Assembly: GCF_025698945.1 (NCBI RefSeq)
Contig: NZ_JAILWM010000001.1
Location: 372,001 to 436,000 of the forward strand
DNA from: Nitrosopumilus sp.
GTDB lineage: Archaea; Thermoproteota; Nitrososphaeria; Nitrososphaerales; Nitrosopumilaceae
Length of the DNA stretch: 64,000 nucleotides
Direction of reading: 5' to 3'
Part shown: positions 22,419 through 23,538 of the stretch, piece by piece
How the letters are laid out: each line of letters opens with the position of its first letter
Position numbering within the stretch: position 1 is the stretch's first letter
Position numbers and translations under genes: made by a program
Notes under the pieces: generated by a model
The model's input: only the letters and a program-made list of their open reading frames with translations
The model's database searches: none
What the model was told of the DNA's origin: nothing

Positions 22419-22667
22419 ATGGTTAATTTTGAAAAACTGTATTACAAAATTGCTTTACAGGTAATCAAAAGATGTCATGGGGCAATCAAAATCACTAAAC
22501 ATGGAAAAATTCTTGAAGTTTATGATCCAAAACGACATATTTGGAGCAAGGGACTTGCTGGTCTTATAATTAAAGAAGAATGCAAAAATGCCAATCTGAG
22601 AGAATGGGAATTTGCTAGTGTTAGGACTTACATCATAAAAGAATTATTGAGCAAATCTGATTCTTAA
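22419..22667 (+). CDS. Hypothetical small basic protein
   Basis: 82 aa, basic: YKIALQVIKRCHGAIKITKH, ILEVYDPKRHIWSKGLAGLI and EWEFASVRTYIIKELLSK. Alpha/beta mix, no signal peptide. Overlaps the convergent zinc-ribbon gene by 4 bp. Could be nucleic-acid binding from its charge; no family recognised. Confidence 0.5.
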   Translation: MVNFEKLYYKIALQVIKRCHGAIKITKHGKILEVYDPKRHIWSKGLAGLIIKEECKNANLREWEFASVRTYIIKELLSKSDS

Positions 22668-22924
22668 TATTCGACTTTTCTAATAATATGGGGTTCTTTT
22701 AGCATAATGATGTCATCTTTTCTTGATGACAATTCTACTTGCCTCAAATTATTACTTGTAATGACTATTAGTGCCTCGCATCGTGAACACAAAATTGTTT
22801 TTCCACATGATCTTTCTTCCCTGATTAGTTCTTTTTCTAGCCTGTCATCTTTTTCACAGGTGGGACATAATCTAGGCTCCTTTGAAATACAAATAATTTC
22901 CTTAATGAAAATGGTTCTTCCCAC
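22664..22924 (-). CDS. Zinc-ribbon protein
   Basis: 86 aa. Two Cys pairs, LCPTCE and LCSRCEALIVI, with an extra Cys in SCGKT between them, match a treble-clef or ribbon zinc site. N-terminus MGRTIFIKEIICISKEPR and C-terminus VELSSRKDDIIMLKEPHI are beta-like. A cluster of TTTCTCAA-type half-sites lies upstream (22985-23089). Role unknown. Confidence 0.55.
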   Translation of the reverse strand: MGRTIFIKEIICISKEPRLCPTCEKDDRLEKELIREERSCGKTILCSRCEALIVITSNNLRQVELSSRKDDIIMLKEPHIIRKVEY

Positions 22925-23105: not shown

Positions 23106-23246
23106 TTAGATGCACTTTTTGATGATATCATTTACGGCTCTTGAATAACTATATGTAGAATTTTGTTTTTGCATTTTTTTTGCTTGAAATAATCTGATTT
23201 TTTTATCAAGCTCATCTTCGATCATTATTGTGACACGTCTGGTCAT
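23106..23246 (-). CDS. Ribbon-helix-helix DNA-binding protein
   Basis: 46 aa from the ATG at 23246. MTRRVTIMIEDELDKKIRLF is the typical RHH beta strand plus first helix, followed by YSYSRAVNDIIKKCI for the second helix. A TATA-like ataaatac lies about 25 nt upstream, as expected for a leaderless gene. RHH proteins dimerise and repress short operators; the target may include the adjacent intergenic sites, but this is not shown. Confidence 0.65.
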   Translation of the reverse strand: MTRRVTIMIEDELDKKIRLFQAKKMQKQNSTYSYSRAVNDIIKKCI

Positions 23247-23392
23247 GTTATGTATTTCTTAAATTCTGTATTTATGGGATAGATGGTTTATTTTCTAGTG
23301 CCAAATATTTTTCTAAACTAATCACAGTAAAAATTACATAATCTTTGATATTTTTTTGCAATTATTGATACTAAATGTTAAATAGTAAAATT

Positions 23393-23400
23393 GTATATAC
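23393..23400 (+). promoter_or_regulatory. TATA box of the ncRNA candidate
   Basis: The sequence gtatatac, preceded by A-rich tagtaaaa (BRE-like position), lies about 25 nt before the inferred start of the structured RNA at 23421. There is no protein start codon at the matching distance that opens a plausible plus-strand gene. Confidence 0.5.
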
Positions 23401-23420
23401 TATATGATGTCGTTAGTTGT

Positions 23421-23538
23421 AAAATCTGGCGATTAGACTGCGCTACCCCGCAGAACAATAAAGGCAATCAAGCGTTTAACGTTTGACTATGAGAGGGAAT
23501 CTCTCAAAGTTCTGCATTAAGGGGGTTAGCGCCTTTTT
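23421..23538 (+). ncRNA. Candidate structured non-coding RNA
   Basis: About 118 nt with a strong paired core. GCGCTA (23440-23445) pairs with TAGCGC (23527-23532); CCCC (23446-23449) with GGGG (23522-23525); and GCAGAAC (23450-23456) with GTTCTGC (23509-23515). Inside are two hairpins: CAAGCG/CGTTTG (23469-23485, one G-U pair) and GAGAG/CTCTC (23491-23505). A TATA element (tatatac, 23394-23400) lies about 25 nt before the proposed 5' end and a T-run (23534-23538) follows the closing helix. No ORF fits. Not SRP or RNase P RNA by any motif I can see. Strand follows from promoter and T-run. Confidence 0.6.

Follow-up and report, generated by a model that had tools for sequence, protein, structure and literature searches.

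What is encoded at positions 23421-23538 of this window (the whole 64,000-nt stretch of Nitrosopumilus sp. DNA that was analysed), and on which strand? The sequence-only reading had placed there a structured non-coding RNA of no assigned family, standing free between a ribbon-helix-helix gene and purP. The flanks are as it described, since a 46-aa ribbon-helix-helix-like ORF (23106-23246) and purP (Pfam PF06849/PF06973) both lie on the minus strand. The 46-aa ORF, upstream of the RNA gene, has no Pfam match but is conserved at the locus among about 15 species of Nitrosopumilus. Two other small proteins, a cysteine-rich one of 86 aa (22664-22924, minus strand) and one of 82 aa (22419-22667, plus strand), occur genus-wide at the purP locus, also without a Pfam match.

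Fold, covariation and strand

The minimum-energy fold of 23421-23538 (-40.5 kcal/mol, z = -4.1, with none of 200 shuffles equally stable) is the one drawn earlier, in which three interrupted closing-helix segments (GCGCTA/TAGCGC, CCCC/GGGG and GCAGAAC/GTTCTGC; 23440-23456 with 23509-23532) enclose two hairpins. The reverse strand, being complementary, is expected to fold too and does, and the strand therefore cannot be told from energy alone.

On the plus strand, the closing helix is made up of an outer part, P2 (23440-23449 with 23522-23525 and 23527-23532), with 97.5% of alignment cells paired and both-side changes in 8/10 pairs among divergent copies, and an inner part, P3 (23450-23456 with 23509-23515), with 96.5% of cells paired and both-side changes in 7/7 pairs. 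P4 (23468-23475 with 23479-23486) is a variable hairpin in which about 90% of cells are paired and compensatory changes are numerous. P5 (23490-23495 with 23501-23506; 85% of cells paired) is a conserved hairpin with a GNAAU-type loop, and its core GAGGNAATCTC is almost invariant between genera. P4 and J1 are the freely varying parts of the domain. The motif ACGAGAGGA in P5, which we took to resemble a sarcin-ricin loop, was dropped as it is not conserved between genera.

Compensatory changes in the helices, set beforehand as a test of the fold, were found both in an alignment of 69 copies (A1) and in a divergent set of 88 distinct rows (A3). In A1, 91.7% of cells were paired, compared with at most 45% when the strands were slid. 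A3 was fitted to the structure and hence leans towards it; in this set at least one change on both sides was seen in 36/39 pairs, 88% of cells were paired versus at most 49% with the partner strand slid, doubly changed cells numbered 428 versus 118 ± 11 in shuffles, and the covariation score was 0.38 versus 0.17 in shuffles. Some of the compensation can be read directly, as GCAGAAC/GTTCTGC becomes GCGGGAC/GTCCCGC or GCAGGAC/GTCCTGC.

Within P2 and P3, G-U cells (n = 93) far outnumber A-C cells (n = 11), which identifies the plus strand as the RNA. A minus-strand reading, as the leader or 3' end of a neighbouring gene, was rejected on these counts together with the position of the TATA box and the ORF described below. 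The RNA, its strand and its structure are thus supported by comparison between copies, and the element is almost certainly a real RNA gene.

Promoter spacing and the nine-codon reading frame

A TATA box, TTAAATAG, lies at 23378-23385 on the plus strand, with its first T 29 nt before a start codon. This T is found at -29 in 181/222 copies and at -28 in another 22 (203/222 together). In front of 761 ordinary ORFs from these genomes, TATA-like pentamers are most frequent at -28/-30, a peak that came from this larger set with looser words since exact 7-mer counts within the window alone are too sparse, and leaderless starts are therefore usual in these genomes. With the TATA centre about 26 nt before the start codon there is no room for a 5' UTR, and we infer that transcription begins at the ATG itself. 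The predicted leaderless transcript is about 132 nt long (23407-23538, plus strand), with its 5' end set by the TATA spacing and its 3' end by a U-run. Many copies have a second motif, approximately NNTATA, about 10 nt before the ATG (23392-23404 here, between TATA box and ATG), which is perhaps a proximal promoter element.

The promoter-like signal of the sequence-only reading was sound insofar as the element has a promoter of its own, which is an archaeal TATA box; a sigma-70-style scan, which is uninformative for an archaeon, gave nothing above chance for the element. As to the claimed terminator-like signal, the U-run at 23534-23538, directly 3' of the closing helix, fits an archaeal terminator, and the terminator scan that accompanied the promoter scan found none. 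A T-run within 25 nt occurs in 190/215 copies compared with 72% in shuffles, only modestly above what composition gives.

The start codon opens a reading frame of nine codons, MSLVVKSGD* (23407-23436, plus strand; ATG TCG TTA GTT GTA AAA TCT GGC GAT TAG). When one rule was applied to 225 distinct copies, start, frame and stop were kept in 222, and 204 had exactly nine codons; lengths of 7, 8, 10 or 12 codons occur in a few copies. Start codons are mostly ATG (n = 208), with GTG (n = 9) and TTG (n = 5) as minor forms, and the stop codons are TAA (n = 121), TAG (n = 64) and TGA (n = 37). ATG, exactly nine codons and the TATA spacing coincide in 189/225 copies versus 0.4% of local shuffles. The three copies without a called ORF are a decayed one with 24% GC (L244), a doubtful match (L234) and one in which no TATA box was recognised. 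A spacer (23437-23439) separates the stop codon from the structured domain and measures 3 or 4 nt in 188/222 copies.

The claim that no protein fits the element therefore does not stand, and the 5' boundary at 23421 cuts into the ORF; the start of the element lies near 23407, about 14 nt upstream. The RNA is structured as proposed, but owing to the conserved ORF at its 5' end it is not purely non-coding.

A FastTree tree inferred only from the domain implies about 47 switches of stop codon and about 12 changes in ORF length; with some 100 nt behind the tree such counts are inflated, but the frame persists in all cases. If the 170 substitutions on a spanning tree of the ORFs fell at random, 28 ± 5 ORFs would be broken. 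Comparison thus bears out the promoter spacing and the conserved start, frame and stop, and the mini-ORF is very probably translated.

The peptide itself varies. Other clades have MPKDIIPID*, MRKDANPID* or MQKDVKSTA*, the peptides of paralogues and of genera differ widely, and only the initiator residue is conserved across all copies, with no control-codon run for any one amino acid. The synonymous share of ORF substitutions is 0.19 versus 0.25 ± 0.04 expected, a comparison of limited power in so short an ORF; as synonymous changes are not enriched, the peptide sequence does not appear to be a target of selection, as it would be in a dual-function sRNA. It is therefore distinctly unlikely that the nine-residue peptide is the product of a mini-gene or dual-function RNA in which the domain provides stability or termination, although the conserved start, frame and stop are what such a gene would have. 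Locally alike peptides also recur within genus groups (MQKDVKSTA in several genera, M-x-K-D/R-A/V-N in others), which could reflect a functional peptide and to that extent speaks against the reading we prefer below. The covariation of the domain, on the other hand, goes far beyond the needs of a stability element.

Part of the ORF can pair with itself (23409-23416 with 23426-23433, plus strand). The mean z over 117 distinct ORFs is -2.4, and the register of the hairpin varies by genus. It was not retained as a conserved 5' unit because only 70.6% of cells are paired in a fixed register and several copies at the aro locus described below (locus C) have no such hairpin, yet retain the ORF.

Distribution and genomic loci

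Using blastn, the element was found in 54/60 sampled genomes of the genus (its own included), mostly at two sites per genome. Two covariance models were built, R1 from 69 copies and R2 from 91 divergent copies. R1 was positive in 206/400 genomes of the order (E ≤ 0.01), all belonging to one family and covering 18 genera. When 28 genomes representing 16 further families of the order were searched with high sensitivity, a single match appeared, at chance level (E 0.84), and R2 had no match outside Nitrosopumilaceae in a 300-genome sample of the phylum. The family name rests on the named records that carry copies, which are Nitrosopumilus, Nitrosarchaeum, Ca. Nitrosomarinus and marine group I. 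Judged by these homology searches, the structured RNA is present in nearly all sampled Nitrosopumilaceae genera, including the small genomes of genus g35.

Genomes usually have one to four copies. With R2, weak members were also detected in genus g43, and the count for the source genome rose to three. This third copy (C1:121223-121348 of the source genome; L241:3724-3849) is diverged, is flanked by aroA-like and aroC-like genes of the opposite strand, and has the ORF MRNRVNSNK* without the hairpin; similar copies exist in other genera. In genus g33, two diverged tandem copies about 300 nt apart (L119:1195-1316 and 1501-1624) each have a TATA box and an ORF. The decayed copy mentioned above (L244:2634-2761), seen in one genome, has degraded helices and an ORF that ends at codon 5, which looks like the ongoing loss of a redundant paralogue.

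No copy was detected in the Nitrosopumilaceae genera g40, g41 and g47, among them three g41 genomes about 0.8 Mb in size, which may represent loss or divergence past the reach of the models. Typical copies in two sequences titled Nitrososphaeraceae (L267 and L294) were attributed to misnamed bins, the coordinates of L294 being those of a genome (G234) placed in the family of the window. A pattern match in Rhodobacteraceae (L306) was dismissed as chance.

The copies occupy a few inherited loci, where the gene names other than purP are our reading of the sequences. At locus A, that of the window, the neighbour is purP. At locus B, the neighbours are an SDR gene and a secreted hypothetical protein, and locus B is probably ancestral because the weak g43 copies also sit there. 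At locus C the copy is flanked by an aroC-like and an aroA-like gene, both on the opposite strand, and other copies lie near TFB-like and CorA-like genes.

The next downstream gene is convergent in 196/221 copies, in line with the claim that the element is not the leader of a plus-strand gene, and there would therefore be no cis target. As few independent loci stand behind these neighbour counts, they support a transcript that stands by itself and should not be read as a statistical law. A cis element, either a leader or attenuator of the downstream gene or an antisense or terminator element for the convergent neighbour, would be suggested by the co-directional gene within 300 nt in 25/221 copies and by the 3' end of the element abutting the convergent gene at locus B. 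Such an element is very unlikely given that neighbours differ between loci A, B and C and in other genera, and that no downstream family is common to all loci. A leader-peptide attenuator was rejected for the lack of a consistent co-directional gene or gene family downstream and of a control-codon run.

Known RNAs and the possible role of translation

An RNA that is conserved, structured and present in several copies per genome could be a diverged housekeeping RNA (RNase P, SRP, tmRNA or snoRNA) or a mobile element. Rfam 15 at the gathering cut-off gave no match over the element and only a distant tRNA elsewhere in the window, which agrees with the lack of an assigned family in the sequence-only reading. 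At E ≤ 10, the best match to the element was snoR21 on the minus strand (E 8.5, 17.8 bits versus a 45-bit cut-off), and this is not credible. The archaeal RNase P RNA of the genome (RF00373) was identified at C1:184998-185278, outside the window, with 188.9 bits, and its SRP RNA (RF01857) at C5:81086-81397 with 108.3 bits, both scores exceeding the cut-off. ARAGORN was negative for tmRNA, and the ORF starts with ATG, GTG or TTG. Box C/D or H/ACA guides were rejected since the 5' TGATG is kept in some genera only, no 3' ACA box is conserved and no guide family of Rfam matches. No relative was found in phages, plasmids or IMG/VR viral contigs, which together with the few inherited loci speaks against a mobile or viral origin. 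All of these origins are therefore scarcely credible. Complementarity to the rRNA operon was not better than that of shuffled segments.

We found no description of this RNA in the open-access literature, and several known systems resemble the element in part. The rnTrpL/peTrpL RNA of Sinorhizobium meliloti is a ribosome-dependent attenuator sRNA with a leader peptide, a short transcript in which a very short ORF (14 aa) is followed by structured RNA and which acts in trans (PMC7298713). It is a released trpE(G) leader with tryptophan control codons (PMC7298713), whereas the Nitrosopumilaceae RNA lacks both a downstream gene and a conserved control codon and has the leaderless start of an archaeal transcript, and the two are not homologous. 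The ribosome-occupied sRNAs of Haloferax volcanii are likewise archaeal and ribosome-associated, many without evidence of a conserved protein, but they were found by Ribo-seq, belong to another phylum and are not one structured family, and the abstract describes no common sequence or nine-codon layout (PMC12482152). The Nitrosopumilaceae RNA is predicted from sequence, and the likeness to the Haloferax sRNAs is a resemblance in kind that does not imply a relation. Tan1 of marine group II Euryarchaeota is also a free-standing, structured ncRNA of marine archaea outside Rfam; by its description it is set apart as a 229-nt RNA of another phylum, known from abundant transcripts (PMC5069720). Like tmRNA, the element would be a stable RNA with a short reading frame ending in a stop codon, but it has no tRNA-like domain or CCA end, and its ORF has a start codon of its own right at the 5' end. 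We regard the element as a member of an RNA family not described before, matching no family tested.

An ORF of nine codons at an exposed 5' end has room for about one ribosome, which, given general ribosome footprint sizes, would extend into P2 when the stop codon is in its A site. For this reason we prefer, tentatively, a free-standing leaderless RNA that is a translation-dependent regulator acting in trans, with ribosome-gated folding of its domain. Transcription would start at the ATG and a ribosome would initiate on the bare 5' end, translate nine codons across the small hairpin and terminate 3-4 nt short of the base of the compact P2-P3-P4-P5 domain. Selection would keep translation and termination at this site rather than the peptide. 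A single ribosome at codon 10 would open the lower part of P2 and so decide whether the domain folds and binds its partner, on which the domain would act in trans. We infer transcription, actual translation, ribosome-gated folding and trans action from sequence, and the gating step follows from geometry only.

It is also conceivable, if rather unlikely, that the domain acts in trans without any gating by the ribosome and that the mini-ORF merely serves the 5' end by providing stability or a harmless leaderless start. The domain is indeed the most strongly conserved structure, P4 and J1 are free to vary, and the loci are free-standing. The exact ORF length and the fixed distance of 3-4 nt between stop codon and P2 nevertheless exceed what an innocuous start would need. 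Should the preferred, ribosome-gated reading hold, the element might represent a new class of RNA, a possibility we regard as slightly more doubtful than that reading itself, in which translation as such is conserved, about one ribosome is stopped at the foot of the domain, and the RNA serves as a stand-alone translation sensor in ammonia-oxidising archaea.

Nitrosopumilaceae, which drive nitrification, rank with the ocean's most abundant cells, and few small RNAs have been described in them. Retention across the family, including in genomes of about 1.2 Mb, makes a core role likely, and a covariance model is now available for a gene that would go unnoticed in current annotation. If the preferred reading is true, the RNA would be a clear-cut natural example of a short ORF that is valued for being translated, and it would connect ribosome activity with RNA structure in archaea in a way that can be tested.
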